Assembly (NCBI GenBank): GCA_013368375.1 | Contig: JAACJP010000066.1 | Span: 62,001 to 126,000 of the forward strand | DNA from: Tricholomella constricta | Lineage: Eukaryota > Basidiomycota > Agaricomycetes > Agaricales > Lyophyllaceae | Direction of reading: 5' to 3' | DNA length: 64,000 nucleotides | Shown: piece by piece, positions 2,899 through 25,653 of the stretch | Layout: every line of letters begins with the position of its first letter | Position numbering within the stretch: position 1 is the stretch's first letter | Program-made: the position numbers and the translations under genes | Notes under the pieces: generated by a model | What the model was told of the DNA's origin: nothing | Seen by the model: the letters and a program-made list of their open reading frames with translations, nothing else | Databases searched by the model: none

Positions 2899-3249
2899 TG
2901 TTAGGACCTGTGTAACACGCCGGTTACAGAGTTGTTCTGGAACCACCGAAGCGGACAGGCCTGACGTTTGTCGAGGAAGACGGCCTTCAAATGGGATATC
3001 CGGAGGTCGTGAGCGTCGACGAATGCGTTCACAAGAGCGTTTACGAGAACGTGTGGAGCTCAAGGGATACGAGTAAGAGAAACAGAATAGATTGAGAGCA
3101 AAAGGAATCGAGAACAGAGACTGGTCGTAACAATAAGCAATATCAAGGTAAAGAGTCAGGAAAGAAGTGGTGTCATATTATATACAGTCGTGCGGGAAAA
3201 CGTAGTGGGATGTGAGTTTTAGGGGTGGTCGTTAGGGGTGGTCGTGACA
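2899..3249 (-). repeat. 5' LTR of element A
   Basis: A 351-bp sequence with TG...CA ends, homologous along its length to the two 358-bp LTRs of element E. The 12 bases immediately internal to it (2887-2898, ACCTCGATATTA) are identical to the E leader. The complementary self-primer segment inside this LTR has decayed to CAATATCAAGGT. The right edge abuts TGAGC; the partner target duplication lies outside the window. Confidence 0.88.
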
Positions 3250-4487: not shown

Positions 4488-6214
4488 ATGTCTGTTATCC
4501 CCGCACTCGCCCTCGGCTCACAAGACAGCGATTCGACTGTTGTCTCCCCTTACGCTGTCTCGGAGTACGAGAAGATTGCGTACTACAACGGCATCACCGA
4601 CAACGACGACCACCCCAACCTCCTTTACCGGTCTGATCTTTTCACCAATCCCTTCCCCAAGCCCCAGGGCAGATTCGCCAATCTCCCCTCCAAGTCGCTT
4701 CGAGAAGTCTACGACACCTCGCTCAACAAGGTCTGGCACACTGTCGGTCCCGAGATCCGCGACCTGGTGAAAGGTCGCAAGCTTCGCTATTCGTCCATCG
4801 ACCCTGCTCGCTTTGTCAGCTACGGAGAGGACGACGAGCAGACTCTCGGTCCACCCGTCATTTGGGTCGGTGTCTATCCCAACTCTACCTCTCCCGACAC
4901 CGCCCACGAGGTCTCCCAGGACATCCTTGCTCTTCTCGCGCAGAATGGAGTCCAGGATGTCGTGGTGGAGTGGCGTGAGGCCGTTTTGTCCAAGCTAACA
5001 GGTCCACCCCTCATGCGCGTTGTCGGCAGCCACAACCCTACCGCCCACGTCCGTCGTATCTTCACTGCCGCTCTCAACATTCCCCTCGCCACCAAGGAGA
5101 GGGAGACCGATGATGCCCAGGGTAGCCTCACTCTCTTCTTTCACGAATGCAAGGACAAGCACGGCAACCCCAGCGATAAGGTGTTGGGCGTCAGCAACTG
5201 CCACGTCCTCCGGAAGGACACCACCGTCGACTACGACTTCAAGGGGTCTGGCGCACCTAAACAGTATGTTCGTGCCAACGGAATGCGTCGCTTCCAGCAG
5301 GGTTTGGACGAAATCAGGACTCTCATTGGCAACCACGGCATGGTTGCCGACGCCTACATCAGAGGAATCGTCAGGTTGGAGGCGAAGCAGAACCGGGACA
5401 GAGATGACGATAGAGAGCTTCGCAAAAATAAAGACCTCTTGCTCGAGAGGCAAGAGGCTATCGCCGAGCTCGAGGAATTCTATGGTGAGGTCAAGAACCA
5501 GTGGAGCGACATTGGGCTCCGCAACATCGGTCACGTTCGTTACGCTAAGGCCATCTCCGTCGACATTGAGGGTGGAACACGGTATACGGAGGATTGGGGT
5601 GCTTTCGAAGTTGATGAGACGAAGGTCAAGGCCGAGTTTGAAGGCACATTCGTAGATCTGGGTGCGGTTTGACTCATTTTTATCATTTACTTTGTTTAAC
5701 AAAACTTTATTCAGGAACTGACATTTCTCTTGACAAAGTGACCGCCGTGTTCTATCCTCAGAGTAATACTAGGACCACTTTCGAGTATCCCGACGATCGA
5801 AAGCTCAAGATCCAAGGCGTCGTCACGCACGAACTCCTCGCCAATCCTGACTTGTTCGACAGCGAGAACCGGCCCTGCCTTATCGTCGGAAAAGACGGTA
5901 CCAAGACTGGCCTCACCTTCGGACGCTATGCGGGCCTCGAGTCCTTCCTCTGCGACGAACTCGGTGTTGAGTCCGTCGAGCTCGGAATCTACAACTGGGG
6001 GAAAAATTCGGGTGTCTTTGCAGGCAAAGGAGACTCTGGGGCCCTCGTCTGGGACGGCAATGGCCGTGTCGTTGGCCAACTCCACTCTGGTCAGTCGAAA
6101 GGCGGCTCAAGCAGCTCCCATGTCGCCTACGCCACCCCTGGCTGGTGGCTCCTGGAACGTATCAAGCTCCACTTTCCTTACGCCGTCTTCTTCCGCGACA
6201 CCTGGTCTGCGTGA
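4488..6214 (+). CDS. Trypsin-fold-like hypothetical protein of a multi-copy basidiomycete family, 557 aa
   Basis: Two exons, 4488-5661 and 5715-6214, join in frame across a 53-nt intron with a GTGCGG donor and TTCAG acceptor; the sum is 1674 nt. The N-terminal 200 residues are a family-specific domain (region around HEVSQDILALLAQNGVQDVV). The middle holds VSNCHVL, a plausible catalytic His, then a charged helical insertion around residues 290-330 and EDWGAFEVD, a plausible Asp. Exon 2 contains GKGDSGALVW, a classic serine-protease nucleophile motif, followed by QLHSGQ. The order His-Asp-Ser matches chymotrypsin-like folds. I recognise similar proteins as common uncharacterised mushroom genes. 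Whether it is an active protease is not known; the function is inferred from the motif only. No signal peptide is apparent. Confidence 0.82.
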
Positions 6215-6661
6215 GAACAACATTGTTGGCCTCCTGCCTTTGAGATGTCCACTTAGAGATGACTTTAATGAAGGAATCTGCTCAAAGCAATAGACAGCTT
6301 GTTGAAAATAGAATTATTGTGTACCATATGCTGCCATCATCTGACATTTTGCTCGTTACATGCAATGTCCGGGCCGCTTGATTGTCATAGGCGAAAATTT
6401 GTTCTGACCACAGGCAAGTAGCGTGGTGAGAACATCTTTATTCGATTGCTACGGAGGTCTGGAAGTGAGTATGACTTTGGTGTTTTCTGGGGGTTATTAA
6501 TATGAGCGGATTGCTGAAGATTTGCAGGAATTCAATCATGGGAGAAGCCGAGGTTTCTCAGGCCATAGGAGACCAAGAGGGAGGGATTGATGAATAGAAC
6601 TTCAGTGCAACACTTTGCGCGAAAGCTGTGAGATTATCTGGAACATACAACAATGATCCCG
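6215..6661. other. Intergenic region between convergent genes
   Basis: This 447-bp stretch holds the 3' flanks of the protease-like gene (plus strand) and of the PUP1-like pseudogene (minus strand). No coding potential or repeat was recognised. Confidence 0.5.
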
Positions 6662-7593
6662 CTATGTAGTATCCATCGCGTCCCCACCGACAAACGTGAT
6701 CTGCTCATTGACGACGAGATCGCGCACATTCTCGGTCTTCCACGCGGTGGTGCCACGGCGGAAGGCGTACTTGCGCTCCTTCTGCACGCGCATGTTGGGC
6801 ATCTCGACGTTCCGCAGCATCTCAGTGTGCGAAGCGGTGATGATGCAGGCGTCGATGTTTGAGCCGGAGCCGAGATCGTTGAAGATACCGGCGGAGATGG
6901 CGGCTTTCACGAGGTTGAGGGCATCTTCGCGCTATGGAGATAGATTTAACCATGCGGGTGATGAGGGCTAGTAGTTATAGGGTACGTACCTCCATGTTCG
7001 CTCGCCAGCCGCTTTCAAAAACGGCCATGGCGGCTAGACTACCTGAGCCCATCGTCACGTACGGGAGCTTGTCGGTGGAACCGTGTGGGTGGATTGTGAA
7101 GAGGTGGGGACCTGTGGCGTCTACTCCTCCAAGAACAAGTGCTGCACCTACTTGGCCCTGGTATCTATTGTGACTGCTGCTCTAGTTCGATTCGTGGTCG
7201 AGAAAGATGTGTTACGCACCTGAAGAGCATCTGCTTCAGCATCGTCATCGCCGTGACTACCCGCGGTTTGGAACCAGTCGAGAGCGCGTGCAACTCCATG
7301 TTTGATGAAATCAGGGCGGTGGTGAATTCAGTGTCTGCTGCCGTGCCAGCACCACAGCAACGAATGGACTCGGTGATGTGGTGGATCTGAAAAGGACATG
7401 GTCAGGAAGGTTGCAAGAGCGAGGTGAACGCGCGTCCTGGCATACCTTTTCGCAGTTCTTGTCCGCGACGATGGGTCCCTCTGTCGCTCGCGTATCGGCA
7501 CCGAGGGACTATTCCATCTTTGAAAAGGCATCCGACGATCGTGGTACCTGTGCTTGTGGCTTTGGGAAGAGGCCAGGCTATACGGTCATAATG
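6662..7593 (-). pseudogene. PUP1: Proteasome subunit beta2 (PUP1/PSMB7-type), 5'-truncated and frameshifted copy
   Basis: Reading right to left, exons at about 7446-7572, 7220-7386, 6990-7164 and 6662-6931 encode a recognisable beta2 proteasome subunit. They include ATSTGTTIVG with the N-terminal catalytic Thr of the mature chain, [54 protein letters not shown] and GIFNDLGSGSNID, ending MDTT. Introns are short with canonical ends. Directly after the catalytic segment one extra base (in the GAGGGAC run near 7503-7508) shifts the frame between FKDGIV and GADTRATEG. The 5' coding part with the propeptide start is missing: homology stops close to 7593, exactly where the Crypton-like array begins. 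Since beta2 is essential, another intact copy is expected elsewhere. A sequencing error at the indel cannot be excluded. Confidence 0.82.
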
Positions 7594-8162
7594 ATGTACC
7601 TGGGTTGTGGTGGCCACCGCGGGCACCTGCCGGTGACGTGCACGTGACCGGCTTCCCGCGCCAAAATCTCATGTCTGGGAACGTCGCCGAGACGCACCAC
7701 CCGTCGACCGTATACACCCCGGAAGAGGCAAGGTCTCACTCGTTGGAAGTGCCGATGGGAGAGAACGAGGAACCTTCGTTCGAGCAGTGTTCGATCGAAG
7801 GAAGCCGGTGAGTACCAATGTCTTCAAACGAGCGTTTGATTGACTTGGGGGGGCCGCAGGTTATCTTCTATTTAGATTGTGTTCGTTTTATTCAATCTAT
7901 TCGACTATTCGATCTCTTCGAACTCGCCGAACACGAAAGACCAAGGCTGATTGAAGTGTTTGGCGGGGTCGATCATCGCAAACGACGTCGGCGCGTGCGA
8001 TCGAAGGTATCGCAGCCACTGGACCCCGTCTAACCCCCGATCGAGCGATCGCCTGTTTCGTTTTCTTCGAGAGCGATGTGGGAGGCGTCTCAGCTGCGTC
8101 TCAGCTTGTTGCCCGTCTCCCGTTGTTTTCTGTTCCAGTGACAACACATCTAGCCCGGTACC
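7594..8162. other. Left end of Crypton-like copy 1, non-coding, with presumed promoter
   Basis: The first 50 bases form an imperfect inverted match to the right end of the unit and contain the palindromic segment GTGGCCAC. The rest has no convincing coding exon joined to the downstream gene; short ORFs here are not supported by splice sites or family resemblance. It probably holds the recombination site and the promoter of the 8163 gene. Confidence 0.5.
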
Positions 8163-9803
8163 ATGCCCAACGTCGTCGAGAGGCCGTATGAAGCCAGTGA
8201 TCTGTGAGTAGACAATTTTCATAGTGAGAACAGGCGTTGCTGAGTGTTTCAGCACTGTGAAGAAGGCGGTGCTCCTCGAGATGGTCAAACGGCAGCGCGA
8301 CAAATGGCCTCTCGCCTCGTTCAACCCGTCGAAGATCCGAGTCGAGACTCTGAGGGAACACCTCCTGTCAGGAGGATTCACGAAGCAGGTGACCTTCGAC
8401 AATACCACACTTGAGCCCCCTTCTATTGCCGTTGCCGGCCCTCAGAGCTCACCAGCACCTGCAACAGGTACGTGCTTTGCATGCACTGGCAAGCCCGTTC
8501 AGGTCTACCAATGACACCAATTAGATTGGCCCGAGAACATGACGAATCCTTCGCTCCTGGAGGCGGAGGGAAGTGACTCGAGGCATGAGCGAACAGGTAA
8601 GTCCATTGGAATTCACACTTTCGCAGTCATCTCATTGTCCAAGTCGGCATAGAAACTACTTCTCCTCGAACAGCAGCACCGCGTCTGACTGCAGCACTGC
8701 TCGAACTCCAGGCATCGAAGGATGAAGAGGACAAGGTAAGTCATTGTCTCAGGATCAACGCTGCTGCTTCGAGAGTTCAAATCAATTCTCCAGCTCCACA
8801 GACGACGCGAAGACCTTCACGCCTGCCGGATCCGTCTGTTGATCGAGGAATGGGTTGACACGTCGGCCGTCAAGAGGCATGTTGAAGACGTAGATCTGCG
8901 ACCGCTTGAAGTTCATCCAGCGGGTGATTGGGATATTCGAGCCACTGAGGTTCTCTGCGCGCTCCAAAACTCATTTTCGGCTATCGAAGGTAGGTCCTTT
9001 GTTGATTTACGAGATGTTGCTTATGCCGCTTGTACTTGACAGGCGTTGTGAAGGTCTCTGTCCCTGACACGATTGACCCCGAATATCGACGATGCTTTGC
9101 GAACATGGCTCGTGATGGAAATCCGTTGGTCAATACCGAGACCAATCCAGCCATTCTGAGAGTTCGAGACGCGTCAATGAAACTAATCATCGAGCATGTG
9201 CGTATCTTTTCCTGTTTGCTCAGCTATGTGTACTTTTTATGGTCAGTAATAGATACCATCTAGAGTGGTGCATATGCGTGAAACGGCTCATACCACACGC
9301 ACGGGCCACAATCGCAGTCACGACAACTCTGAAATCGCTCATACTGCGGGCCACAAACGCAATCGCGATGATTCTGACAACGAGTGTCCTCTGCAGAAAG
9401 CGACGAATCGAAAACAGGCGAGGACTACAGCTGCCTCCGAAGGAGAAGAGCGAGAAGATGTCGAGTGGCTGAAGCGTAAAGCAGCTACTCGGCCTGGCTA
9501 CATCGAGTTCTGCGCCAATCGCAATCGAAAGCTGAACAACCCCGCACGAGCCCGGTTTTGGAGTTTCGCTGCTTGTTTTTCCAGTACTTATTACAAGACA
9601 TACATCGACATTCCTGTACGAATTTCTCTTACTCTTCGATGCCACACGTGAATAAATATTTCGACCAGGGCATTTGCCATAAGGTTCGGGTCACCAAGAA
9701 GGCAATCATGGACGCTCTAGGCGTCGGAACCACAGCTCTTGCGGAGGCAGAGAACATGAGCAGGATAATGGATATGTATGGTGAACACGGCGGCCTCCAC
9801 TGA
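8163..9803 (+). CDS. Element-borne conserved protein of unknown function (gene X), copy 1
   Basis: Start MPNVVERPYEASDL at 8163 fits because its 41-nt exon splices in frame to 8253-8467, 8525-8596, an exon ending before GTAAGTCATTG (about 8733), and then 8794-8989, 9044-9203 and 9266 onward. All have clean GT/AG ends. Readable segments include a helical KKAVLLEMVKRQRDKW region, a RRREDLHACRIRLLIEEWVD segment, SVPDTIDPEYRRCFANM, and a basic region HKRNRDDSDNE that may be a nuclear localisation signal. I recognise this as a family that recurs in mushroom genomes near transposons, but know no function. The 3' end is uncertain: the frame stops at 9803, and a further exon to 9902 is possible. It lies about 145 bp upstream of the TET/JBP-like gene on the same strand. 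Confidence 0.68.
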
Positions 9804-9947
9804 TCTCAGGAGGTCATCGACACACTGCAAGATGACGAGCTTGTAGGCTCGGGAATTCTGGCATCGTTTCTGATACAATGGGAGAGGGACCACCCAATCT
9901 AACATCTATTATCTCTCTGACTTGATGTAATACTTTGAATGACAGAT

Positions 9948-11907
9948 ATGTATTCTAGTGGGCGTGAGGAAAGAAAATGTGTCGTGTTGCGCGGCTTCAC
10001 ATTTTCTCGTGATCAAGAACTTCTGTTTGCTACTCTACAACCACTGCTGCCGCCACTATCAAAAAACTTCTTTTTGCACCTCCCTCTTCTCAAGGCGCAC
10101 TGAGGCCAGTACTACATACAAGGTGAAGTGTCGTACTTTTTTTCTCGGGCTGTTGCTCTCAGCCCACTGCGATACAGCGTGTTTGGCTACTTCAGGCATC
10201 AAACCTGGGGCCAAGGAGACAAACACGCTGTATCGCAGTGGGCTGGGAGCAATGGCCTTCCGTAGTCAAGTTATTCACTGATATTGTGCATTGATAGTGT
10301 TGATAACTCTTTCTTGAGCTCAAGTTTGACTATGCGTTCTGTACGTTTTCTCCAGCACTTCCTACAGCTTGAAGCGGGACAGGCTAATCTAATGGGACTG
10401 AAGACGCGTTCTGGCGTCACATTCTCGCCGTACGACATGATACCCATCTATTGCGCCAAGGACTTCGACTTCGCATCGCTGCTTCAGCAGTCAACGCGCC
10501 TGGAGTCCGAGGATCTTGAGGACGACAATACCACCTGCGATGCTGCTGAAGTGGCGATGGTTGAACATGAAGCCTCATCTGAATCAGGGATCAGCGCCTG
10601 CCGAAACGACTGCGGGTGGCTATTCCTAGCTCATCCATCGCCCCACAAATTCCTGAGGCCGTTTCTCTGAGCACGTCCCGCCGGCATTCTATTCGACGAA
10701 AGAAGCGAGCACTCCGCATACTCGAAGAAGGCCATGTACCGCGTTCGAAAACACACGCGAAGTATGTTCGATCCTCCTTCCCGATTGCGACATCTCTCAA
10801 AAGTGAAGACCTTCCGACCACAAAGGGCGCCTACTCTGCGACGAACACCAAACAGACAGCTGGTGATAGGAAGGCCTGGACTGTCGATGAGCTGCTGAGA
10901 GAAGGGCTTAGTTACGTGCACTGGGATGGATTGTGAGCACCTGTGCACGCCAATTGCGCACTGTGCCCTTTTAACATTTTTCTTGCAGTAAAGATATGCC
11001 ATTGATTGATAGCGAGGGTCGAATCATAGCCGTCCTCGTTGGTCAACCGAATGACTCAGGCTACGCTCAGGCTGTGGCAGCAGTGTATGATGCTATGGCG
11101 TGCGAGGCCCAGGCCACTACTTTTCATCAACGCGATGCAAACCATCGGCGTGGGGACTTTCCTGCTCTCAACGTTGGCGTCACCTACGGCAAGGGCACGA
11201 TCAAACCAGTAACAATCAACAATCATGGCTATAGCGAGATGGTCTCTCGCCTTCTGTCCAATAAAGACCTTCAGCGACTGGCTGCCTTCGACAGCGGTAA
11301 GCTCACATTTACGTTGCAAAATTGGTTTCTCTGATAGTCTTGCCAAAAAATAGCTAGCTTTCAATTATGGGCGCCTGATGTCTACGGGTACTACAAAAGC
11401 CATCTCGATCCTCTTTGGGCAAAGATGCCTGATCTCCGACGTAACTTCAAACGCAGCATCTTCACAAGTGCTGCCTTTAACTTTGGCCCGAACGTTTGGA
11501 CTTTTCGCCACCGTGATGCACAGAACTGTCCCTTTGGCTGGTGCGCTATCAAGGGCCTGGGGCCGTACGATTCCACGAAAGGCGGCCACCTCATTCTCTG
11601 GGAGCTTGATCTTGTGATTGAGTTTCCTTCAGGTGCTCTTGCTCTAATTCCGTCTGCGACCATTTCCCACTCCAACGTTCCTGTGCAACCGGGGGACAGC
11701 CGTGCATCCTTCACGCAGTATTGTGCAGGTGGGCTATTTAGATATGTCGACAATGGATTCAAAACAGAGGGTGAGCTTGAAAAGATGGACAAGGAGAGAT
11801 ACCAAGAAATGTGCGAAATGAAGAAGACACGGTGGGAGATGGGGCTGAGTCTTCTTAGCAAATTTGATGATATTGTGAAGTTCTCGAGCACAAATGTACC
11901 ACTGTAA
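9948..11907 (+). CDS. TET/JBP-type 2-oxoglutarate/Fe(II) dioxygenase, copy 1
   Basis: The last three exons are secure: about 10595-10932, 10989-11296 and 11354-11907, spliced in frame. The final exon encodes the double-stranded beta-helix oxygenase core: FRHRDAQN (the HxD iron ligands), then KGGHLILWELDLVIEFPSG, ATISHSNVPV (distal iron His) and DSRASFTQY with the Arg expected to bind 2-oxoglutarate, followed by GGLFRYVDNGF. This is the mushroom TET/JBP family, whose studied relatives oxidise 5-methylcytosine or thymine in DNA. The 5' half is uncertain: exons around 10163-10260 (GYFRHQTWGQGDKHAVSQW) and 10325-10551 look coding. The most upstream ORF from 9948 changes frame near an A6 run at 10061-10066. 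The reaction on this enzyme's own substrate is inferred from the family. It is convergent with the recombinase gene. Confidence 0.8.
10161..10244. repeat. 24-bp inverted repeat in the TET/JBP gene, copy 1
   Basis: Arms at 10161-10184 and 10221-10244 are perfect reverse complements (first arm begins AGCCCACTGCGATACAGC) around a 36-nt spacer. The segment overlaps a probable coding exon and the adjacent splice acceptor, so the transcript could form a strong hairpin. In copy 2 one arm base differs (C to T at 18916), silent in the preferred frame. Confidence 0.85.
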
Positions 11908-12029
11908 TGTAATGTCATTCCACTTCAGCAATTATACGAGGCAGTAAGTAAGAGTAGGAGAATTAATTTGTAAAGAGAACTAAGGGTACGATTCTGCTAC
12001 TTTGAGAACTTCAACCAACCCTGTGCCAT

Positions 12030-14966
12030 TCAGAAATCGCAGAACCCACGAGGCGTAAACTGATGCTCATATCGCTCACGAATAAACCTAAGAGCAAGTT
12101 GAACGTTCCAGCGGTGTTTTGCGGCAAGCTTCTCCACCAAATTCACAACCTTACTTCGCCAAGAGGCTTCTGTCTTTGTGCGTCCAAGGTTCCTCTTCCA
12201 TCTTGCTCCCCAAGTGATGTTCAATTCACGCACGGGGAGGTGTCCATTGAGCCCATCAGAATACTCGTCCCAGATGTGCGTGATTTTTGTGACGGTCTGA
12301 AATTCATAGTGGGGGAGCCAGGTTTCTGATGATGAAATCCAGTCCCATTTGTGTGCTCGAAGACGCGCCTCAGGATATTTCTTCCCAAGCTCGAACCAAG
12401 CCGTCGTTGAAAGCGATGGAGTAGGTGAAGGCGTAGGCAGGATTGGGAGGACTGGGTTAGCAATAAGAGGTGTTGACAAAGGCAGAGGCGGAGGGGACAT
12501 CGAGAAGAGTGGCGGGGCAAACGGCAAACTGGAAGACATATCAACCTCCGTTTCTAAAGGTGACCTTGAGGCATCTGGCTGGCCCACGAGGGGGACTGCG
12601 GAAGTTGCAGCTAGAGGTTGGAATGAAGGCTGAGTGGACGTCATTGAAGGGGGAGGGTGGACTGGAGATAACGTCAGACTACAAGGAACAGAGGCAGATT
12701 ATTGATACAAACCAAAATCATTGACATCGACATGTCTTGTCCTTCTTTGGCGTGAGCGTGCTTGCGAAGTGGTACAAGCAAACTCCTCCAGCTGTCTCTC
12801 CATCCGGTCCTGGTAAGCCCGATTCTCCGCTCGTTCCCGCTCCTGCTCGAGTGAGAAGTTGGTAACAACCCCCCGAAGAGACTCAACCAGGTGCCCTGGC
12901 AGGTTTTTCAAAACCAGGGCTGCTTCCTCTTCTGCTCGCTTGATTTGTGCTCCTGCAGCTGCAGCGTACACGCGAAAGGCTAATGTGTTGAAAGGAGGAT
13001 ATTCGAAGAGCGAGCAGTCTGGGTGGCTTGAGTAGAGTACTGCTGCATCTTGAAGGAGAACTATGCGAAACCAAATTAAGAGTTGCAGGAAGTGCCAGAG
13101 GGCAATATCCTGTGATAGCCGGTCAGCATTCCGACGTTCATCGAGCACATCAATTTCTGCCTCCACCCATGGGAAGAGCGCATCGGAAAGCTCACACGGA
13201 GGATCTAAAATATGTCATCTTGTCATTGAAGATATGCGGTGAGATTATTGAGTTAAAAGCTTACCGAGGCAAGCACGGGGCACAAAGTATGTCTCAGGCT
13301 TACGCCCGTTGAACATTGCTGCGCCAAGTAGTGCGTCGACTGGTAGGGTCCGGTCATAGCACCTCCGAAATGAACCACTCTCGCTCCACCCTCCAAGGGC
13401 CTTCGTGCCGTCGCTACTCGCTCCGTTCTCGCGTGCTATCCTTGCAGACGAAGTGCGCCCACCATGAGTCACTTTGCTGATGTGCACGTTATTCTTCGCA
13501 TGCAGGAGGTTGACTTGATCACGGTGGTCTAAAAAGATAGGTTAGTCGATGCAGCAGGGAATCATGTCCCACATGGGTGCTTACTGTCGTAAGACATGGC
13601 TTTTGAGATACTACTGGTTGAAAAGACGTAGTGCTCATACCATTCACGTCTGCCGTACTCCCCGTATCCGGGGTCTTCGAAGTCGGGCTTGAAATTCGGT
13701 ACAGGCGTGTTCAAAACGTGAAAGATTGAAAAAAAGAGCATGGCCAGGGCACCGACAGGACACAATTCAACGAAACGGTGACGGAAGGCACCGTGTTCAT
13801 CGACTCGCCCGTCCTGATTAGTCTTGGTGTTATCAGCAAGAATTACAAGAGCCTATCAAATAACGAACGTCAGATGTGGGTGAGACAGATTTGAGGTGAA
13901 GCACGGAAGCACACCTTAACTTCTGCGCCAAGGTGGATATCATTCATTGGCACGTCAACAAAAAAAAGATCAGACCAAAGCAGATCTCGCGAGCTGTCTC
14001 CTCGGAAGGCAATACTCGACGAGACCAACAGCATTGCTCGATCACGTACACCAACAAAGGTTTGACGTGGGCCCGAGAAGTTCTTCAGGCACCAGATAGA
14101 GCATTGGATAAGTTGCTCTCTTGTGTAAGTGTCTGTACAACATGCATAAGAAACATGTAGAGGATAGCTAGTCAGTCAGAATGAACATACCCGCAATAGT
14201 GCCTGCAGCTTTCAAGGCCTGTGATTTCTCGACACGCATTGGCTCGTTGTGGGATATGGCATCCTCAAATTTCTTGATTCGTTCGTCCCAACGAAGCGGG
14301 CGCTGGGCATCGAAATCGTTGGGGTAGTCACTCTGGTGGTTCAGCCGGTGGTGTTCGAGGGCAGAAATCACTTGTTTGAGGTGGGAACGACCAACGAACG
14401 AGCCTTCAATGATCATAGTCTTGCTTCCCTGCTTACGCTAAAGAAGAAGAAGTGAGTACGGTTCAGCAATGAGGAGGAGAGCGACACGGTACCTTTGGGC
14501 GAGTAGCCTCGTAGTCAAGATACATCATCACTTTTGCTGCGGTAATGGGAAATGACGGGAGGACCTCTCGTGTCGGATCTGCAGTTACTACACAAGGCTG
14601 ATAGACTGTATCCCACCAGAGCTGATAGGCAGAGACATGCCTCCCATAAGATGCCTTGGTTCCCTTATCTTCCTGCTCTCTTACGGCGTATTCCTTTCGC
14701 TTCTGATGAGCTTCCGCATGCAGCAAGTCCTTCGAACGCTGGGCACGGTCAAGCAACGAGGTAGTGCTCTTGGTGTTCACAGGCGTTGCAGTCGTAGCTA
14801 CGGCTTGTACAGGAGGGCTTGAATCAAACAGAAGAGGCGGCAGGGGCGCGTAGGGAACAAACTGGACTTCGGCACTGGTCAGTCGAGTTCGTTTGCGGCT
14901 GAGCGGGCTCTGGGCCTGGCCAGGGTCGAGGTGAACGGCCTTTGGTGGTGTAGTAGGGAGACTCAT
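12030..14966 (-). CDS. Crypton-type tyrosine recombinase with GCR1_C-like DNA-binding domain, copy 1, 864 aa
   Basis: Seven exons on the minus strand, 14493-14966, 14191-14437, 13915-14132, 13585-13852, 13265-13528, 12713-13204 and 12030-12661, all with GT/AG introns, sum to 2595 nt in one frame. After a Pro-rich start comes a core-binding helical region (ASYGRHVSAYQLWWDTVY). The catalytic domain follows: Arg in SIAFRGDSSRDLLWSDL, then DNTKTNQDGR and FRHRFVELCPVGALA, then THGGRTSSARI (the HxxR box), LGGW, and RRCYDRTLP with the likely nucleophilic Tyr. The C-terminus (ITHIWDEYSDGLNG, LNITWGARWKRN) resembles the GCR1_C domain found in Cryptons. It should cut and rejoin DNA through a phosphotyrosine link, moving the element by a circular intermediate. 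All catalytic positions are present, so it may be active. It converges with the dioxygenase gene, 122 bp apart. Confidence 0.9.
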
Positions 14967-15376
14967 GCTTCTTCAGAAGGAATCAGCACGATGCATGATA
15001 GTGAGCGGGACACGCAAACAGGGCTTACATAGCTAATGGATAATTATGTTGGGGAGTGGGAGTGGGCGTCGTCGTCAAGACACAGCTGAAGTCGAGTTGA
15101 GCTGGCTTCAGCGGATCCGAAATTTGATGTGAAGAGACGAAACAAAAACACGCACATTATGCTGGATATTAAGGTAAGGAGTCCTGGCTCGCTGTCAATT
15201 AGCGCCTGATCATGTCAATGTGATGGCGTGCACGAGAGACGGGGATGTAGACGGGGACGGGGATGTTACAAAGATTGCGAAAAAATTGCCAGCGCCGTAC
15301 TAGGGTCGAGGGTTCGTCCGCGAAAAAATGTCCTAAAGATTTGACCCGCGTTGATCTGAGAGAGACGTTCAGAAAT

Positions 15377-15615
15377 CAATGCGTGTGTCGTCGCATTGCG
15401 CAACGCAACGTGATGCTCACCGGAGAGGGCAATCCCTTCTTCGTGTTGTTGCCTGAGGAGGCGCACGAAGGACGGGAGTCTGAGTAACAAGAGCAATGAA
15501 ATCAGTGCATGTTTCGTCGCATTGCGCAACATGATGCTTACCGGAGAGGGCAATGGGGCAATCCCTTGATCCTTTTTTGTGTTGCTTTGAGGCGCGCGAA
15601 GGACCAGAGTCTGAG
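15377..15615. repeat. Imperfect direct repeats in Crypton right end, copy 1
   Basis: Two units of about 110 bp share a GCGCAAC-centred core, a TGATGCT(C/T)ACCGGAGAGGG segment and a GCACGAAGGAC/GCGCGAAGGAC segment. The same pair occurs in copy 2 at about 24067-24305. Confidence 0.7.
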
Positions 15616-16062
15616 TATGGAGGACAAGAGCACGGTGTGTGTGGAATGATTATTTATTGGGCGTAAGGAATATCAATATCTTATAATCTGGTACAAGAGA
15701 GTCTTCAAAACTCGTTAGGGGGTCGTTAGGTCAGGTCGCGCGCGTTTGCGGGAACGGAAGCCTGAGAGAGAGGAGAGAGCCTTCATTCTTCTTCGTTTGG
15801 GCGTGCTGCACGGTGCTGCACGCGTCTTTTTTTCTTCGTTCACGCGTTCTTTTGACGTTGCTAAGAGCGCGAGCACACGACGGGGAGGGCAGCGGCAGAC
15901 GGGCAGCGAGCGCGAGCAGAGAAGAGAAGAGAAGAGAAGACGACGAACGGCCGTGTGCAGAGAGAGTTCGGGCTCAGGCCTAGAGACAGAGAGAGCTCCA
16001 ACCCTAGAGTGGGGGCACAGTTGGGGGGCGGCCGAAGATGCCGCTCCGTCACGCGATCGGCG

Positions 16063-16202
16063 AGCCGAGAGGGGGAGCCGAGACGGTCGAGGGAGCTGAG
16101 ACACTGTTCAGACCCGGGAGTATCAGCATGTAGCCGAGAGAGGGAGCCGAGACGGTCGAGGGAGCCGAGACTTGTTGTTCGGACCCGGGAGTATCAGCGT
16201 GT
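16063..16202. repeat. Tandem 70-bp repeat near Crypton right terminus, copy 1
   Basis: Two adjacent units, 16063-16131 and 16132-16202, share AGCCGAGAG, GAGCCGAGACGGTCGAGGGA and CCCGGGAGTATCAGC. Similar sub-terminal repeats can be recombinase or accessory-factor binding sites; that role is inference. Confidence 0.75.
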
Positions 16203-16284
16203 ATCGGGCTGGTGACGCCGCTTGGCTTACGCGGGGGTCACCGGCGAGGTCACCAGCGCTGGCCGGTAACCCGGTGTATACTCT

Positions 16285-16853
16285 ATGTACCTGGGTTGTG
16301 GTGGCCACCGCGGGCACCTGCCGGTGACGTGCCCGTGACCGGCTTCCCGCGCCAAAATCTCATGTCTGGGAACGTCGCCGAGACGCACCACCCGTCGACC
16401 GTATACACCCCGGAAGAGGCAAGGTCTCACTCGTTGGAAGTGCCGATGGGAGAGAACGAGGAACCTTCGTTCGAGCAGTGTTCGATCGAAGGAAGCCGGT
16501 GAGTACCAATGTCTTCAAACGAGCGTTTGATTGACTTGGGGGGGCCGCAGGTTATCTTCTATTTAGATTGTGTTCGTTTTATTCAATCTATTCGACTATT
16601 CGATCTCTTCGAACTCGCCGAACACGAAAGACCAAGGCTGATTGAAGTGTTTGGCGGGGTCGATCATCGCAAACGACGTCGGCGCGTGCGATCGAAGGTA
16701 TCGCAGCCACTGGACCCCGTCTAACCCCCGATCGAGCGATCGCCTGTTTCGTTTTCTTCGAGAGCGATGTGGGAGGCGTCTCAGCTGCGTCTCAGCTTGT
16801 TGCCCGTCTCCCGTTGTTTTCTGTTCCAGTGACAACACATCTAGCCCGGTACC
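16285..16853. other. Left end of Crypton-like copy 2, non-coding
   Basis: Same content as 7594-8162, with one substitution seen (16333). Its first bases form the inter-copy junction. Confidence 0.5.
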
Positions 16854-18493
16854 ATGCCCAACGTCGTCGAGAGGCCGTATGAAGCCAGTGATCTGTGAGT
16901 AGACAATTTTCATAGTGAGAACAGGCGTTGCTGAGTGTTTCAGCACTGTGAAGAAGGCGGTGCTCCTCGAGATGGTCAAACGGCAGCGCGACAAATGGCC
17001 TCTCGCCTCGTTCAACCCGTCGAAGATCCGAGTCGAGACTCTGAGGGAACACCTCCTGTCAGGAGGATTCACGAAGCAGGTGACCTTCGACAATACCACA
17101 CTTGAGCCCCCTTCTATTGCCGTTGCCGGCCCTCAGAGCTCACCAGCACCTGCAACAGGTACGTGCTTTGCATGCACTGGCAAGCCCGTTCAGGTCTACC
17201 AATGACACCAATTAGATTGGCCCGAGAACATGACGAATCCTTCGCTCCTGGAGGCGGAGGGAAGTGACTCGAGGCATGAGCGAACAGGTAAGTCCATTGG
17301 AATTCACACTTTCGCAGTCATCTCATTGTCCAAGTCGGCATAGAAACTACTTCTCCTCGAACAGCAGCACCGCGTCTGACTGCAGCACTGCTCGAACTCC
17401 AGGCATCGAAGGATGAAGAGGACAAGGTAAGTCATTGTCTCAGGATCAACGCTGCTGCTTCGAGAGTTCAAATCAATTCTCCAGCTCCACAGACGACGCG
17501 AAGACCTTCACGCCTGCCGGATCCGTCTGTTGATCGAGGAATGGGTTGACACGTCGGCCGTCAAGAGGCATGTTGAAGACGTAGATCTGCGACCGCTTGA
17601 AGTTCATCCAGCGGGTGATTGGGATATTCGAGCCACTGAGGTTCTCTGCGCGCTCCAAAACTCATTTTCGGCTATCGAAGGTAGGTCCTTTGTTGATTTA
17701 CGAGATGTTGCTTATGCCGCTTGTACTTGACAGGCGTTGTGAAGGTCTCTGTCCCTGACACGATTGACCCCGAATATCGACGATGCTTTGCGAACATGGC
17801 TCGTGATGGAAATCCGTTGGTCAATACCGAGACCAATCCAGCCATTCTGAGAGTTCGAGACGCGTCAATGAAACTAATCATCGAGCATGTGCGTATCTTT
17901 TCCTGTTTGCTCAGCTATGTGTACTTTTTATGGTCAGTAATAGATACCATCTAGAGTGGTGCATATGCGTGAAACGGCTCATACCACACGCACGGGCCAC
18001 AATCGCAGTCACGACAACTCTGAAATCGCTCATACTGCGGGCACAAACGCAATCGCGATGATTCTGACAACGAGTGTCCTCTGCAGAAAGCGACGAATCG
18101 AAAACAGGCGAGGACTACAGCTGCCTCCGAAGGAGAAGAGCGAGAAGATGTCGAGTGGCTGAAGCGTAAAGCAGCTACTCGGCCTGGCTACATCGAGTTC
18201 TGCGCCAATCGCAATCGAAAGCTGAACAACCCCGCACGAGCCCGGTTTTGGAGTTTCGCTGCTTGTTTTTCCAGTACTTATTACAAGACATACATCGACA
18301 TTCCTGTACGAATTTCTCTTACTCTTCGATGCCACACGTGAATAAATATTTCGACCAGGGCATTTGCCATAAGGTTCGGGTCACCAAGAAGGCAATCATG
18401 GACGCTCTAGGCGTCGGAACCACAGCTCTTGCGGAGGCAGAGAACATGAGCAGGATAATGGATATGTATGGTGAACACGGCGGCCTCCACTGA
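16854..18493 (+). pseudogene. Gene X, copy 2, frameshifted
   Basis: Exon structure and sequence match the 8163-9803 gene, but one C is missing in GCGGGCACAAACGC (copy 1 has GCGGGCCACAAACGC) near 18042. The frame changes after HTAG, inside the basic region, and ends within about 40 codons at 18160-18162. Everything downstream of that point in copy 1 (the WLKRKAATRPGYIEFCANRN region) is out of frame here. Unless this is a base-calling error, only one of the two tandem units can make the full protein. Confidence 0.7.
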
Positions 18494-18637
18494 TCTCAGG
18501 AGGTCATCGACACACTGCAAGATGACGAGCTTGTAGGCTCGGGAATTCTGGCATCGTTTCTGATACAATGGGAGAGGGACCACCCAATCTAACATCTATT
18601 ATCTCTCTGACTTGATGTAATACTTTGAATGACAGAT

Positions 18638-20597
18638 ATGTATTCTAGTGGGCGTGAGGAAAGAAAATGTGTCGTGTTGCGCGGCTTCACATTTTCTCGT
18701 GATCAAGAACTTCTGTTTGCTACTCTACAACCACTGCTGCCGCCACTATCAAAAAACTTCTTTTTGCACCTCCCTCTTCTCAAGGCGCACTGAGGCCAGT
18801 ACTACATACAAGGTGAAGTGTCGTACTTTTTTTCTCGGGCTGTTGCTCTCAGCCCACTGCGATACAGCGTGTTTGGCTACTTCAGGCATCAAACCTGGGG
18901 CCAAGGAGACAAACATGCTGTATCGCAGTGGGCTGGGAGCAATGGCCTTCCGTAGTCAAGTTATTCACTGATATTGTGCATTGATAGTGTTGATAACTCT
19001 TTCTTGAGCTCAAGTTTGACTATGCGTTCTGTACGTTTTCTCCAGCACTTCCTACAGCTTGAAGCGGGACAGGCTAATCTAATGGGACTGAAGACGCGTT
19101 CTGGCGTCACATTCTCGCCGTACGACATGATACCCATCTATTGCGCCAAGGACTTCGACTTCGCATCGCTGCTTCAGCAGTCAACGCGCCTGGAGTCCGA
19201 GGATCTTGAGGACGACAATACCACCTGCGATGCTGCTGAAGTGGCGATGGTTGAACATGAAGCCTCATCTGAATCAGGGATCAGCGCCTGCCGAAACGAC
19301 TGCGGGTGGCTATTCCTAGCTCATCCATCGCCCCACAAATTCCTGAGGCCGTTTCTCTGAGCACGTCCCGCCGGCATTCTATTCGACGAAAGAAGCGAGC
19401 ACTCCGCATACTCGAAGAAGGCCATGTACCGCGTTCGAAAACACACGCGAAGTATGTTCGATCCTCCTTCCCGATTGCGACATCTCTCAAAAGTGAAGAC
19501 CTTCCGACCACAAAGGGCGCCTACTCTGCGACGAACACCAAACAGACAGCTGGTGATAGGAAGGCCTGGACTGTCGATGAGCTGCTGAGAGAAGGGCTTA
19601 GTTACGTGCACTGGGATGGATTGTGAGCACCTGTGCACGCCAATTGCGCACTGTGCCCTTTTAACATTTTTCTTGCAGTAAAGATATGCCATTGATTGAT
19701 AGCGAGGGTCGAATCATAGCCGTCCTCGTTGGTCAACCGAATGACTCAGGCTACGCTCAGGCTGTGGCAGCAGTGTATGATGCTATGGCGTGCGAGGCCC
19801 AGGCCACTACTTTTCATCAACGCGATGCAAACCATCGGCGTGGGGACTTTCCTGCTCTCAACGTTGGCGTCACCTACGGCAAGGGCACGATCAAACCAGT
19901 AACAATCAACAATCATGGCTATAGCGAGATGGTCTCTCGCCTTCTGTCCAATAAAGACCTTCAGCGACTGGCTGCCTTCGACAGCGGTAAGCTCACATTT
20001 ACGTTGCAAAATTGGTTTCTCTGATAGTCTTGCCAAAAAATAGCTAGCTTTCAATTATGGGCGCCTGATGTCTACGGGTACTACAAAAGCCATCTCGATC
20101 CTCTTTGGGCAAAGATGCCTGATCTCCGACGTAACTTCAAACGCAGCATCTTCACAAGTGCTGCCTTTAACTTTGGCCCGAACGTTTGGACTTTTCGCCA
20201 CCGTGATGCACAGAACTGTCCCTTTGGCTGGTGCGCTATCAAGGGCCTGGGGCCGTACGATTCCACGAAAGGCGGCCACCTCATTCTCTGGGAGCTTGAT
20301 CTTGTGATTGAGTTTCCTTCAGGTGCTCTTGCTCTAATTCCGTCTGCGACCATTTCCCACTCCAACGTTCCTGTGCAACCGGGGGACAGCCGTGCATCCT
20401 TCACGCAGTATTGTGCAGGTGGGCTATTTAGATATGTCGACAATGGATTCAAAACAGAGGGTGAGCTTGAAAAGATGGACAAGGAGAGATACCAAGAAAT
20501 GTGCGAAATGAAGAAGACACGGTGGGAGATGGGGCTGAGTCTTCTTAGCAAATTTGATGATATTGTGAAGTTCTCGAGCACAAATGTACCACTGTAA
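18638..20597 (+). CDS. TET/JBP-type 2-oxoglutarate/Fe(II) dioxygenase, copy 2
   Basis: This is the second copy of the gene at 9948-11907, with the secure exons at about 19285-19622, 19679-19986 and 20044-20597. The oxygenase core is unchanged: HRD iron ligands, distal His in SHSNVPV and the Arg of SRASFTQY. The only difference seen is C to T at 18916, which is silent in the frame giving GDKHAVSQW; this supports that exon being translated. The same doubt about the 5' exons applies. Two intact, nearly identical cores in tandem suggest that dosage, not just presence, of this gene has changed. Confidence 0.78.
18851..18934. repeat. 24-bp inverted repeat in the TET/JBP gene, copy 2
   Basis: Arms at 18851-18874 and 18911-18934, identical to copy 1 except T at 18916, which leaves one mismatch in the stem. 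Confidence 0.8.
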
Positions 20598-20719
20598 TGT
20601 AATGTCATTCCACTTCAGCAATTATACGAGGCAGTAAGTAAGAGTAGGAGAATTAATTTGTAAAGAGAACTAAGGGTACGATTCTGCTACTTTGAGAACT
20701 TCAACCAACCCTGTGCCAT

Positions 20720-23656
20720 TCAGAAATCGCAGAACCCACGAGGCGTAAACTGATGCTCATATCGCTCACGAATAAACCTAAGAGCAAGTTGAACGTTCCA
20801 GCGGTGTTTTGCGGCAAGCTTCTCCACCAAATTCACAACCTTACTTCGCCAAGAGGCTTCTGTCTTTGTGCGTCCAAGGTTCCTCTTCCATCTTGCTCCC
20901 CAAGTGATGTTCAATTCACGCACGGGGAGGTGTCCATTGAGCCCATCAGAATACTCGTCCCAGATGTGCGTGATTTTTGTGACGGTCTGAAATTCATAGT
21001 GGGGGAGCCAGGTTTCTGATGATGAAATCCAGTCCCATTTGTGTGCTCGAAGACGCGCCTCAGGATATTTCTTCCCAAGCTCGAACCAAGCCGTCGTTGA
21101 AAGCGATGGAGTAGGTGAAGGCGTAGGCAGGATTGGGAGGACTGGGTTAGCAATAAGAGGTGTTGACAAAGGCAGAGGCGGAGGGGACATCGAGAAGAGT
21201 GGCGGGGCAAACGGCAAACTGGAAGACATATCAACCTCCGTTTCTAAAGGTGACCTTGAGGCATCTGGCTGGCCCACGAGGGGGACTGCGGAAGTTGCAG
21301 CTAGAGGTTGGAATGAAGGCTGAGTGGACGTCATTGAAGGGGGAGGGTGGACTGGAGATAACGTCAGACTACAAGGAACAGAGGCAGATTATTGATACAA
21401 ACCAAAATCATTGACATCGACATGTCTTGTCCTTCTTTGGCGTGAGCGTGCTTGCGAAGTGGTACAAGCAAACTCCTCCAGCTGTCTCTCCATCCGGTCC
21501 TGGTAAGCCCGATTCTCCGCTCGTTCCCGCTCCTGCTCGAGTGAGAAGTTGGTAACAACCCCCCGAAGAGACTCAACCAGGTGCCCTGGCAGGTTTTTCA
21601 AAACCAGGGCTGCTTCCTCTTCTGCTCGCTTGATTTGTGCTCCTGCAGCTGCAGCGTACACGCGAAAGGCTAATGTGTTGAAAGGAGGATATTCGAAGAG
21701 CGAGCAGTCTGGGTGGCTTGAGTAGAGTACTGCTGCATCTTGAAGGAGAACTATGCGAAACCAAATTAAGAGTTGCAGGAAGTGCCAGAGGGCAATATCC
21801 TGTGATAGCCGGTCAGCATTCCGACGTTCATCGAGCACATCAATTTCTGCCTCCACCCATGGGAAGAGCGCATCGGAAAGCTCACACGGAGGATCTAAAA
21901 TATGTCATCTTGTCATTGAAGATATGCGGTGAGATTATTGAGTTAAAAGCTTACCGAGGCAAGCACGGGGCACAAAGTATGTCTCAGGCTTACGCCCGTT
22001 GAACATTGCTGCGCCAAGTAGTGCGTCGACTGGTAGGGTCCGGTCATAGCACCTCCGAAATGAACCACTCTCGCTCCACCCTCCAAGGGCCTTCGTGCCG
22101 TCGCTACTCGCTCCGTTCTCGCGTGCTATCCTTGCAGACGAAGTGCGCCCACCATGAGTCACTTTGCTGATGTGCACGTTATTCTTCGCATGCAGGAGGT
22201 TGACTTGATCACGGTGGTCTAAAAAGATAGGTTAGTCGATGCAGCAGGGAATCATGTCCCACATGGGTGCTTACTGTCGTAAGACATGGCTTTTGAGATA
22301 CTACTGGTTGAAAAGACGTAGTGCTCATACCATTCACGTCTGCCGTACTCCCCGTATCCGGGGTCTTCGAAGTCGGGCTTGAAATTCGGTACAGGCGTGT
22401 TCAAAACGTGAAAGATTGAAAAAAAGAGCATGGCCAGGGCACCGACAGGACACAATTCAACGAAACGGTGACGGAAGGCACCGTGTTCATCGACTCGCCC
22501 GTCCTGATTAGTCTTGGTGTTATCAGCAAGAATTACAAGAGCCTATCAAATAACGAACGTCAGATGTGGGTGAGACAGATTTGAGGTGAAGCACGGAAGC
22601 ACACCTTAACTTCTGCGCCAAGGTGGATATCATTCATTGGCACGTCAACAAAAAAAAGATCAGACCAAAGCAGATCTCGCGAGCTGTCTCCTCGGAAGGC
22701 AATACTCGACGAGACCAACAGCATTGCTCGATCACGTACACCAACAAAGGTTTGACGTGGGCCCGAGAAGTTCTTCAGGCACCAGATAGAGCATTGGATA
22801 AGTTGCTCTCTTGTGTAAGTGTCTGTACAACATGCATAAGAAACATGTAGAGGATAGCTAGTCAGTCAGAATGAACATACCCGCAATAGTGCCTGCAGCT
22901 TTCAAGGCCTGTGATTTCTCGACACGCATTGGCTCGTTGTGGGATATGGCATCCTCAAATTTCTTGATTCGTTCGTCCCAACGAAGCGGGCGCTGGGCAT
23001 CGAAATCGTTGGGGTAGTCACTCTGGTGGTTCAGCCGGTGGTGTTCGAGGGCAGAAATCACTTGTTTGAGGTGGGAACGACCAACGAACGAGCCTTCAAT
23101 GATCATAGTCTTGCTTCCCTGCTTACGCTAAAGAAGAAGAAGTGAGTACGGTTCAGCAATGAGGAGGAGAGCGACACGGTACCTTTGGGCGAGTAGCCTC
23201 GTAGTCAAGATACATCATCACTTTTGCTGCGGTAATGGGAAATGACGGGAGGACCTCTCGTGTCGGATCTGCAGTTACTACACAAGGCTGATAGACTGTA
23301 TCCCACCAGAGCTGATAGGCAGAGACATGCCTCCCATAAGATGCCTTGGTTCCCTTATCTTCCTGCTCTCTTACGGCGTATTCCTTTCGCTTCTGATGAG
23401 CTTCCGCATGCAGCAAGTCCTTCGAACGCTGGGCACGGTCAAGCAACGAGGTAGTGCTCTTGGTGTTCACAGGCGTTGCAGTCGTAGCTACGGCTTGTAC
23501 AGGAGGGCTTGAATCAAACAGAAGAGGCGGCAGGGGCGCGTAGGGAACAAACTGGACTTCGGCACTGGTCAGTCGAGTTCGTTTGCGGCTGAGCGGGCTC
23601 TGGGCCTGGCCAGGGTCGAGGTGAACGGCCTTTGGTGGTGTAGTAGGGAGACTCAT
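20720..23656 (-). CDS. Crypton-type tyrosine recombinase, copy 2, 864 aa
   Basis: Exons 23183-23656, 22881-23127, 22605-22822, 22275-22542, 21955-22218, 21403-21894 and 20720-21351 repeat the copy 1 model with an offset of 8690. I saw no difference in the coding sequence, so the catalytic Arg, HxxR, Trp and Tyr positions and the GCR1_C-like C-terminus are intact. With two complete recombinase genes and three potential recombination ends, excision of one unit as a circle, or further array growth, would be possible in principle. Confidence 0.9.
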
Positions 23657-24976
23657 GCTTCTTCAGAAGGAATCAGCACGATGCATGATAGTGAGCGGGA
23701 CACGCAAACAGGGCTTACATAGCTAATGGATAATTATGTTGGGGAGTGGGAGTGGGCGTCGTCGTCAAGACACAGCTGAAGTCGAGTTGAGCTGGCTTCA
23801 GCGGATCCGAAATTTGATGTGAAGAGACGAAACAAAAACACGCACATTATGCTGGATATTAAGGTAAGGAGTCCTGGCTCGCTGTCAATTAGCGCCTGAT
23901 CATGTCAATGTGATGGCGTGCACGAGAGACGGGGATGTAGACGGGGACGGGGATGTTACAAAGATTGCGAAAAAATTGCCAGCGCCGTACTAGGGTCGAG
24001 GGTTCGTCCGCGAAAAAATGTCCTAAAGATTTGACCCGCGTTGATCTGAGAGAGACGTTCAGAAATCAATGCGTGTGTCGTCGCATTGCGCAACGCAACG
24101 TGATGCTCACCGGAGAGGGCAATCCCTTCTTCGTGTTGTTGCCTGAGGAGGCGCACGAAGGACGGGAGTCTGAGTAACAAGAGCAATGAAATCAGTGCAT
24201 GTTTCGTCGCATTGCGCAACATGATGCTTACCGGAGAGGGCAATGGGGCAATCCCTTGATCCTTTTTTGTGTTGCTTTGAGGCGCGCGAAGGACCAGAGT
24301 CTGAGTATGGAGGACAAGAGCACGGTGTGTGTGGAATGATTATTTATTGGGCGTAAGGAATATCAATATCTTATAATCTGGTACAAGAGAGTCTTCAAAA
24401 CTCGTTAGGGGGTCGTTAGGTCAGGTCGCGCGCGTTTGCGGGAACGGAAGCCTGAGAGAGAGAGGAGAGAGCCTTCATTCTTCTTCGTTTGGGCGTGCTG
24501 CACGGTGCTGCACGCGTCTTTTTTTCTTCGTTCACGCGTTCTTTTGACGTTGCTAAGAGCGCGAGCACACGACGGGGAGGGCAGCGGCAGACGGGCAGCG
24601 AGCGCGAGCAGAGAAGAGAAGAGAAGAGAAGACGACGAACGGCCGTGTGCAGAGAGAGTTCGGGCTCAGGCCTAGAGACAGAGAGAGCTCCAACCCTAGA
24701 GTGGGGGCACAGTTGGGGGGCGGCCGAAGATGCCGCTCCGTCACGCGATCGGCGAGCCGAGAGGGGGAGCCGAGACGGTCGAGGGAGCTGAGACACTGTT
24801 CAGACCCGGGAGTATCAGCATGTAGCCGAGAGAGGGAGCCGAGACGGTCGAGGGAGCCGAGACTTGTTGTTCGGACCCGGGAGTATCAGCGTGTATCGGG
24901 CTGGTGACGCCGCTTGGCTTACGCGGGGGTCACCGGCGAGGTCACCAGCGCTGGCCGGTAACCCGGTGTATACTCT
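23657..24976. other. Right end of Crypton-like copy 2, non-coding, repeat-rich
   Basis: Same content as 14967-16284: paired direct repeats at about 24067-24305 and tandem 70-bp units at about 24755-24894. A GA run near 24455 is two bases longer than in copy 1. The terminus is followed by ATATATAAAG of the flank. Confidence 0.7.
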
Positions 24977-25653
24977 ATATATAAAGTGCTTGTGATTACA
25001 GGCGAGACCTTGATACATTATTTGTTGCAATGACAACATCACGTGATAAATCTCACACGCCCAAAAAGACGCACCGTCCCGCTCGTTGGTGCATCGGTGC
25101 GCCTGCCTACGCGCCGCCCCGCCCTGCGCCCTTGTTTGTTACATTTTCACGATCAGAATTCTGCGCCCTTTTTTGATACTTTTCGATCACGATCAAAAGT
25201 CTACCTGTACCTGAAGGTGGTCCGAAGCATTGCCATCTATAATTGTCCTCCGCCTATAAATATCTGAATGCTGATCCAAAACATTCCCTAAATAAAATAA
25301 TGGAGAACAACATACTAGTACCCCTCCTGCTCCTCCGTACAGAAATACGGCGCCAACTATTCACGTAGTTGAGACATGCGGCAAAAACAAAACATATGCA
25401 AAATCTCGGGGGTTATCACGCGCATGACAGGCGTTTCTTGCGTGATTTTCAAAACCTTCGGCGTCAAAATGCAAAACACTATGCAAAACACTAAAGTATA
25501 TTAACAACTAAAGTACCAAGATACAAGATAAACATAATATGCATCAAAAATAATACAGTAAGTCTTGCCATTCAAGCCCTTGCTTTTTTTGCAGCTCTAC
25601 AATACAAAGTTCGTCGAAAATCAGGATAAGGTACTACTGAGGCATGAAACGGC
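24977..25653. other. Intergenic region right of the Crypton array
   Basis: No gene recognised. It is AT-rich in its second half (about 25480-25620). The sequence immediately right of the array does not show the missing 5' part of the PUP1-like gene found at the left boundary. Confidence 0.5.

Follow-up and report, generated by a model that had tools for sequence, protein, structure and literature searches.

Can a transposon with a tyrosine recombinase carry a TET/JBP-type dioxygenase as part of its own body, and if so, where would it have obtained the gene? DNA transposons of fungi that carry TET genes were reportedly described by Iyer et al. in 2014. The question is raised here by a stretch of 64,000 nucleotides from the mushroom Tricholomella constricta, of the family Lyophyllaceae (C66:62001-126000 of a 44.1 Mb assembly of 118 contigs, in which C-numbers denote contigs), referred to below as the window. 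It contains two adjacent units that very probably represent a CryptonF-like transposon whose two-gene body, consisting of a recombinase gene and a convergent accessory gene, gained a gene of TET/JBP fold and an upstream hairpin from a TET lineage some members of which are carried by KDZ transposons. This interpretation draws on the unit and its ends, three independent insertion sites, relatives that lack the TET gene, KDZ-linked sister genes and the fold of the dioxygenase, all of which can be seen directly.

A three-gene unit with constant ends

Unit 1 occupies 7594..16284 on the plus strand (8691 bp), with ATGTACCTGGG at its left end and GTATACTCT at its right end, and is followed head to tail by unit 2 (16285..24976, plus strand, 8692 bp). 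The two are joined by one BLAST alignment from end to end, with 2 mismatches and 2 gap openings in 8695 columns (99.94% identity), and the three-gene tandem pair of 8.69 kb units proposed in the preliminary description is thus borne out. Each unit contains, from left to right, an accessory or third gene (plus strand), the TET-fold dioxygenase gene (plus strand) and a tyrosine recombinase gene of seven exons (minus strand). In unit 1 these lie at 8163..9803, 10332..11907 and 12030..14966, with a hairpin on the plus strand at 10148..10257; their counterparts in unit 2 lie at 16854..18493, 19022..20597, 20720..23656 and 18838..18947. At the left insertion junction (7592..7595) the flank reads AATG and the element ATGTACC, the head-to-tail joint (16282..16287) reads CTC-TAT-G, and at the right junction (24974..24981) the element ends in CTCT and the flank continues as ATATATAA.

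The unit recurs elsewhere in the genome with identical ends, which rules out a chance association. A DNA search found pieces at C6 (89, 83 and 90% identity) and C64 (99-100%) and partial copies at C11, C115, C44 and C8. This search overlooked an array of three units at C2, found through searches with TET and GCR1_C, and its copy counts are therefore lower bounds; the one C2 unit compared is 87.9% identical over positions 1-8494 and 90.8% at the right end. The element starts with ATGTACC at C66, C6, C2, C11 and C44, where the left flanks are all different, and at C66, C6 and C2 the right end is the same GTATACTCT, followed by ATATA in the target, so that both ends have been read at three independent insertion sites. 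The flanks at C64 are 99.3-99.75% identical to those of the window copy; from this similarity we read C64 as the probable other allele of the window locus, and for that reason it is not counted as an independent site. The single copy at C64:65024-105635 is interrupted by three insertions (unit positions 68, ~2573 and ~5513), and the window pair is unbroken. The terminal direct repeat of the window element is exact only for AT and imperfect as ATGTA/ATATA; a relative at C9 that lacks the TET gene has TATG on both sides. No end-to-end inverted pair occurs among the inverted pairs listed (25 of 51; minimum 14 nt).

Divergence between copies is uneven along the unit. Compared with unit 1, the nonsynonymous and synonymous divergence (dN, dS) of the TET core is 0.008 and 0.114 at C6 and 0.064 and 0.438 at C2; the dN/dS values are 0.017/0.062 (C2) and 0.020/0.065 (C6) for the recombinase and 0.106/0.363 (C2) and 0.111/0.409 (C6) for the third gene. 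Identity between copies shifts sharply near unit positions ~2600 and ~4400 (window ~10190 and ~11990), which flank the TET gene. Because dS is uneven in this way, the comparison suggests that third-gene, TET and recombinase modules may have been exchanged among related element copies.

The recombinase and the accessory gene

In unit 1 the recombinase exons (14966-14493, 14437-14191, 14132-13915, 13852-13585, 13528-13265, 13204-12709 and 12678-12030) join into an uninterrupted minus-strand frame of 871 residues, and the R-H-R-Y residues are present. Pfam profiles place GCR1_C (PF12550) in the last exon (E 4.1e-10; 40.2 bits against a cut-off of 23) and NDC10_II in another single exon (E 1.5e-10); three other exons, scanned separately, have no Pfam match. 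The seven exons, catalytic boxes and GCR1_C-like C-terminus that had been recognized earlier, and the profile check proposed for them, all hold up. Both domains are precomputed in 30 of 48 relatives, and in an alignment of 23 of these 48 the catalytic His, second Arg and Tyr together with a Lys are found in 23/23 and the first Arg in 20/23. One relative, P0149, matches the Phage_integrase profile weakly (E 2e-5, under the profile's cut-off). By their taxonomy the named relatives are, we presume, Agaricomycetes except for one alga.

The third gene had been noted as conserved, and is so: it resembles P0169, annotated as D9615_010588, with a product 97% identical to the latter, and has homologues beside the recombinases of Cryptons without TET genes. 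The unit 2 copy has one further single-base deletion relative to unit 1. Its product matches no Pfam family, and its structural model is useless (mean predicted local distance difference test score 39.1). The homologues, with E-values from 1.7e-139 (the query itself) to 1.2e-8, are convergent with and adjoin the recombinase in 9/9 TET-less units (C9, C24, C3, C50, C12 and C5); two more, at C22 and C51, lie away from any listed recombinase. At C9, 27 bp separate the stop codons of the two genes, and in TET units the TET gene occupies this place between them. The right-end sequence GCGAGGTCACCAGCGCT is common to C9 and the TET units.

These features can be compared with CryptonF elements, which, in the available text of the paper defining them here, have an R-H-R-Y tyrosine recombinase with GCR1_C, no terminal inverted repeats, terminal direct repeats of 4-6 bp and a proposed circle intermediate (Kojima and Jurka 2011, PMC3212892). 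The window element is like them in its R-H-R-Y recombinase, GCR1_C domain and the lack of any terminal inverted repeat among the pairs listed, possibly also in its short end repeats, and unlike them in having two further genes, one for a TET-fold dioxygenase. Extra Crypton cargo mentioned in the same text consists of a C48 peptidase, in elements of oomycetes, and of a fusion with Mariner, in Fusarium, and does not include a dioxygenase (PMC3212892).

The dioxygenase and its possible substrate

The TET-fold gene is P0001-like, and its catalytic exons (10989-11296 and 11354-11907 in unit 1) are open in both units. Its core is 100% identical to D9615_010589 of T. constricta and contains the metal site of TET/JBP dioxygenases, HxD...H with a downstream Arg, as H346-R-D348, H399 and R410. 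The core that had been reported for the gene convergent with the recombinase is confirmed by its conservation, with H346, D348 and H399 in 38/38 aligned relatives and R410 in 35/38. Eight of these 38 family members match the Pfam Tet_JBP profile at E <= 0.01 (best 4.8e-6), and searches of PDB sequences with the protein and with its family profile give no TET match. In fold comparisons CcTet, NgTET1, TET2 and CMD1 rank above FTO, ABH3 and PHD2, and the best 25 Foldseek rows are all CcTet, NgTET1, TET2 or CMD1. Among the 2-oxoglutarate (2OG) oxygenases compared, the fold is thus nearest to TET enzymes. Identity to CcTet of Coprinopsis cinerea (7w5p, 7vpn and 8jkk) is 13-14%, and two residues of the substrate pocket differ.

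These two residues bear on what the enzyme would do. In the text consulted of a recent survey, AG-type TET proteins have Asp at CcTet position 337 and Gly or Ser at 331, and PE-type proteins have HxE in place of HxD (Kojima 2025, PMC12730594). CcTet, which acts on 5-methylcytosine (5mC), is a relative of the AG type. The window protein differs from the AG type in lacking the Asp337 equivalent (Cys357) and in having Asn351 at the 331 position, and from the PE type in having HxD; both replacements are invariant in 38/38 relatives. The CcTet-equivalent positions were read by offset from HxD, where the gene L001 of the same genome shows Ser and Asp.

We propose that the dioxygenase would oxidize modified bases in DNA and so might help the element against silencing, a weaker part of the model. 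For CpG observed/expected, three TET units give 0.93-0.96, two Crypton pieces without TET 0.95 and 1.08, a KDZ element 0.92, and four window repeat stretches taken as retroelements 0.85-1.23. The ratio of CpG to non-CpG transitions is 1.51 and 1.84 in two whole Crypton pairs (1.21 in the left half of one) and 0.79-1.43 in five other repeat pairs. Protection from methylation was rejected as a reading of these data: CpG transitions between Crypton copies are no rarer than between the other window repeat pairs, which if anything speaks against protection. An alternative of real weight, which we nevertheless rate somewhat below even, is that the dioxygenase acts on another base (e.g. N6-methyladenine, 6mA), on host chromatin at large or on RNA, or that it only binds DNA. 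The CpG comparison, with no effect seen, and the replacement of the CcTet residues for 5mC and 6mA (Gly331 by Asn351, Asp337 by Cys357) fit that alternative, but the iron- and 2OG-binding residues are conserved and the fold is nearest to enzymes acting on methylated DNA. The preliminary description had a Crypton capture a modified-base oxidase that could erase or rewrite 5mC; a TET-fold dioxygenase within one mobile unit is what we find, while the specific action on 5mC gains no support from Cys357 at the AG-type Asp337 position or from the CpG transitions.

Head-to-tail arrays

Recombinase loci were found at 11 places (C66, C64, C2, C6, C11, C24, C9, C12, C5, C3 and C50), and four of them are arrays: C66 (2 units), C2 (3, period 8682), C9 (2, period 6000) and C12 (3, period 5815). 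One joint was read per array, and in 4/4, spanning three families, it is CTC-TAT-G at the element ends. The TET-less Cryptons at C9:779987-791935 and C12:567985-585429 are likewise exact head-to-tail arrays, of two and three units. In this genome these elements seem prone to forming arrays. Over 8.7 kb the two C66 units differ from each other at five positions, whereas C64, which is single, differs from C66 by 18 substitutions over 4.7 kb; judged by these counts, the C66 pair is apparently younger than the allele split.

In the mechanism we favor, the recombinase would excise the element as a circle with the joint CTC-TAT-G, this joint would recombine either with a target resembling ATATA or with the terminus of a copy already in place, and integration of the latter kind would give head-to-tail arrays, since a circle that inserts there yields an exact joint directly. 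It is unlikely that the pair arose instead by ordinary unequal crossing-over, slippage or assembly error. Crossing-over could add a third unit once two exist (C2 and C12), and the alleles do differ in copy number, with C64 single and C66 a pair; the first duplication, however, requires homology between the ends, and because the end repeats share only two to four bases, an exact first duplication by homologous crossing-over is hard to obtain. The joint is also exact, with the same CTC-TAT-G core across three families and four arrays, and copies inside arrays differ at few bases. A chance tandem was also considered and set aside.

Inverted half-sites were considered as a general feature of the joints and rejected: their score was reached by 49 (C66), 113 (C12), 1333 (C2) and 4527 (C9) of 5000 shuffles, so that shuffles often match at C2 and C9.

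A shared hairpin and the origin of the TET gene

The hairpin, with 45-nt arms, ends ~75 nt upstream of the TET start. In an alignment of seven copies, of which four come from Cryptons, two are KDZ-linked and one is unassigned, 45 pairs are kept; 96.7% of cells are paired against 88.3 (standard deviation, sd, 1.1) in shuffles, and 30 cells are changed on both sides against 11.8 (sd 2.3), values reached in 0/500 shuffles in each case. For additional pair types the count does not exceed that of shuffles (139/500). Two cautions apply: in a palindrome, correction of one arm by the other can look like compensation, and relatedness among the rows enlarges the difference from shuffles. The hairpin with two-sided pair changes sits in the 5' leader of the TET clade, in Crypton and KDZ-linked copies alike. 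Two DNA searches locate it at 10 places in Cryptons and at 10 elsewhere; of the latter, nine adjoin TET matches, and the remaining one, C51:68097, lies near a KDZ match with a TET piece at a distance. The same type occurs at KDZ-linked C18:483k, C18:669k and C7; copies outside the window include L053:1794-1917, L054:7827-7950 and L032:1488-1611, and the hairpin model finds none at the more distant TET genes L001-L008 and L034-L038 within their 1.5 kb flanks. Rfam returns only a sub-threshold mir-609 on both strands, which we take as a generic stem match. The 5' edge of the shared TET module is marked by this hairpin.

Among 41 TET loci chosen from 93 match rows, 8 lie 103-329 bp from a recombinase, at least 17 lie within 6 kb of a KDZ match (a lower bound, since 59 KDZ places were chosen from 157 matches) and 16 are near neither. 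At nine TET places the catalytic exon is 75-78% identical in protein to that of the window, and four of these (C18:481k, C18:667k, C18:675k and C7) are KDZ-linked. These KDZ transposons resemble the window element in hairpin type and differ in having a KDZ transposase beside the TET gene in place of a tyrosine recombinase; the transposase at C18 (L053) matches PF18758 with E 3.4e-62. The KDZ element with a sister TET gene at L053 (C18:667501-675400) repeats at 7132 bp spacing. A quick tree with 128 rows unites the four Crypton TETs (Shimodaira-Hasegawa-like approximate likelihood ratio test, SH-aLRT, 98) inside a 12-row group (SH-aLRT 96) with three KDZ-linked genes, further genes of the same genome, one Hypsizygus protein and one Termitomyces protein. 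We infer transfer from a KDZ-linked TET lineage to the Crypton, a direction that stays tentative because the intervening branches are weak and to which the TET-less Cryptons lend help.

It is very improbable that the TET gene belongs to another element nested in the Crypton, be it a KDZ transposon or an independent TET module. Some of its closest kin are KDZ-linked, and the shared stretch starts at a hairpin also present at KDZ-linked TET genes; but the closest listed KDZ match is 49 kb from the window copies, so that no listed KDZ transposase falls within the unit, the position of TET between accessory gene and recombinase is constant in C66, C2 and C6 despite dS up to 0.44, and the inverted pairs listed include no long repeat that encloses it, and on these grounds a nested KDZ element was set aside. 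A segmental duplication in which a host TET gene and a Crypton unrelated to it lie together by chance is scarcely credible, since the likeness of the C64 and C66 flanks would make one further copy allelic or a segmental duplicate, but C2 and C6 have the same ends in unrelated, independent flanks, which refutes it.

Surroundings of the pair

Elsewhere in the window, positions 1-3249 match 51529-54796, and 34279-59761 also holds repeat blocks, at ~77-99% identity; these are probably retroelements and nested copies. A tandem repeat with a period of 131 bp (~2.5 copies) lies at 31076-31406.

Discussion

Several observations weigh against the interpretation of the pair as a Crypton with a captured TET gene. 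The preliminary description had made the assignment depend on a TET/JBP profile match of exon 11354-11907, and the window protein taken singly has no match to the Pfam Tet_JBP profile; 8 of the 38 relatives do match, however, and the fold comparison outweighs this failure. The Asp337 replaced by Cys357 is needed in CcTet for 5mC, and protection leaves no trace in the CpG counts, which are uncontrolled for age and coding content. In both window copies the reading frame of the TET gene breaks in the N-terminal part, whereas the C64 allele is open there. The annotated model P0001 spans this break by a 14-base 'intron' (read by hand), and the break may be an assembly error. The third gene ends ~33 codons earlier in both window copies than in C2 and C6. 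Because of the broken TET frame and the shortened third gene, activity of the window copies themselves appears uncertain; better preserved copies of individual element genes exist in the genome. Relative to unit 1 the C6 recombinase has an insertion, frame-shifting gaps and a stop, and this decayed copy is likely dead. Of the 59 KDZ places chosen, none lies within 6 kb of five of the nine close TET places (C51, C75, C15, C71 and C82), and the branches that place Crypton TETs among KDZ-linked genes are weak (27 and 36). Linkage of TET and recombinase outside this genome did not show among the 120 of 573 TET homologues listed: with one contig compared per protein, none has a longest contig equal in length to that of a recombinase relative. 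No circle, transposition or enzyme activity has been seen, and the support for a circle is indirect and consists of the exact joints.

Fungal transposons with TET genes are described, in the text available, as DDD/E elements and Helitrons, with transfer of the TET gene between superfamilies (Kojima 2025, PMC12730594), and the window element is like them in carrying a TET/JBP dioxygenase of conserved frame. The main text of that paper does not mention Cryptons or tyrosine recombinases (PMC12730594), and the combination of Crypton and TET is not described in the available parts of Kojima and Jurka 2011, of a 2026 review or of literature joining Crypton, JBP and transposon, where JBP appears only in reference lists; an earlier mention in Iyer et al. 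2014 is possible. We think it likely, with less confidence than for the assignment of the element itself, that this is the first known tyrosine-recombinase transposon with a TET/JBP-fold dioxygenase, that the gene and its structured leader passed between KDZ transposons and a Crypton, that the protein belongs to a TET subtype not yet assigned (HxDxxN...C), and that circles also enter resident copies, building arrays and so increasing, at a single locus, the dosage of the two enzymes.

Crypton integration has been argued, in the portion of the literature cited, by analogy to prokaryotic elements (PMC3212892), and the arrays are sequence evidence on this process. For a matched comparison the genome offers Cryptons with and without TET, whose bodies and ends are related, together with KDZ elements bearing the sister gene. 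With this element, the mobile elements known to carry such enzymes would gain a further class. That a mechanistically unrelated recombinase element has TET too suggests that carriage of TET genes does not depend on DDE transposases or Helitrons, and for the same reason strengthens the case that a DNA-base dioxygenase benefits the transposon itself.
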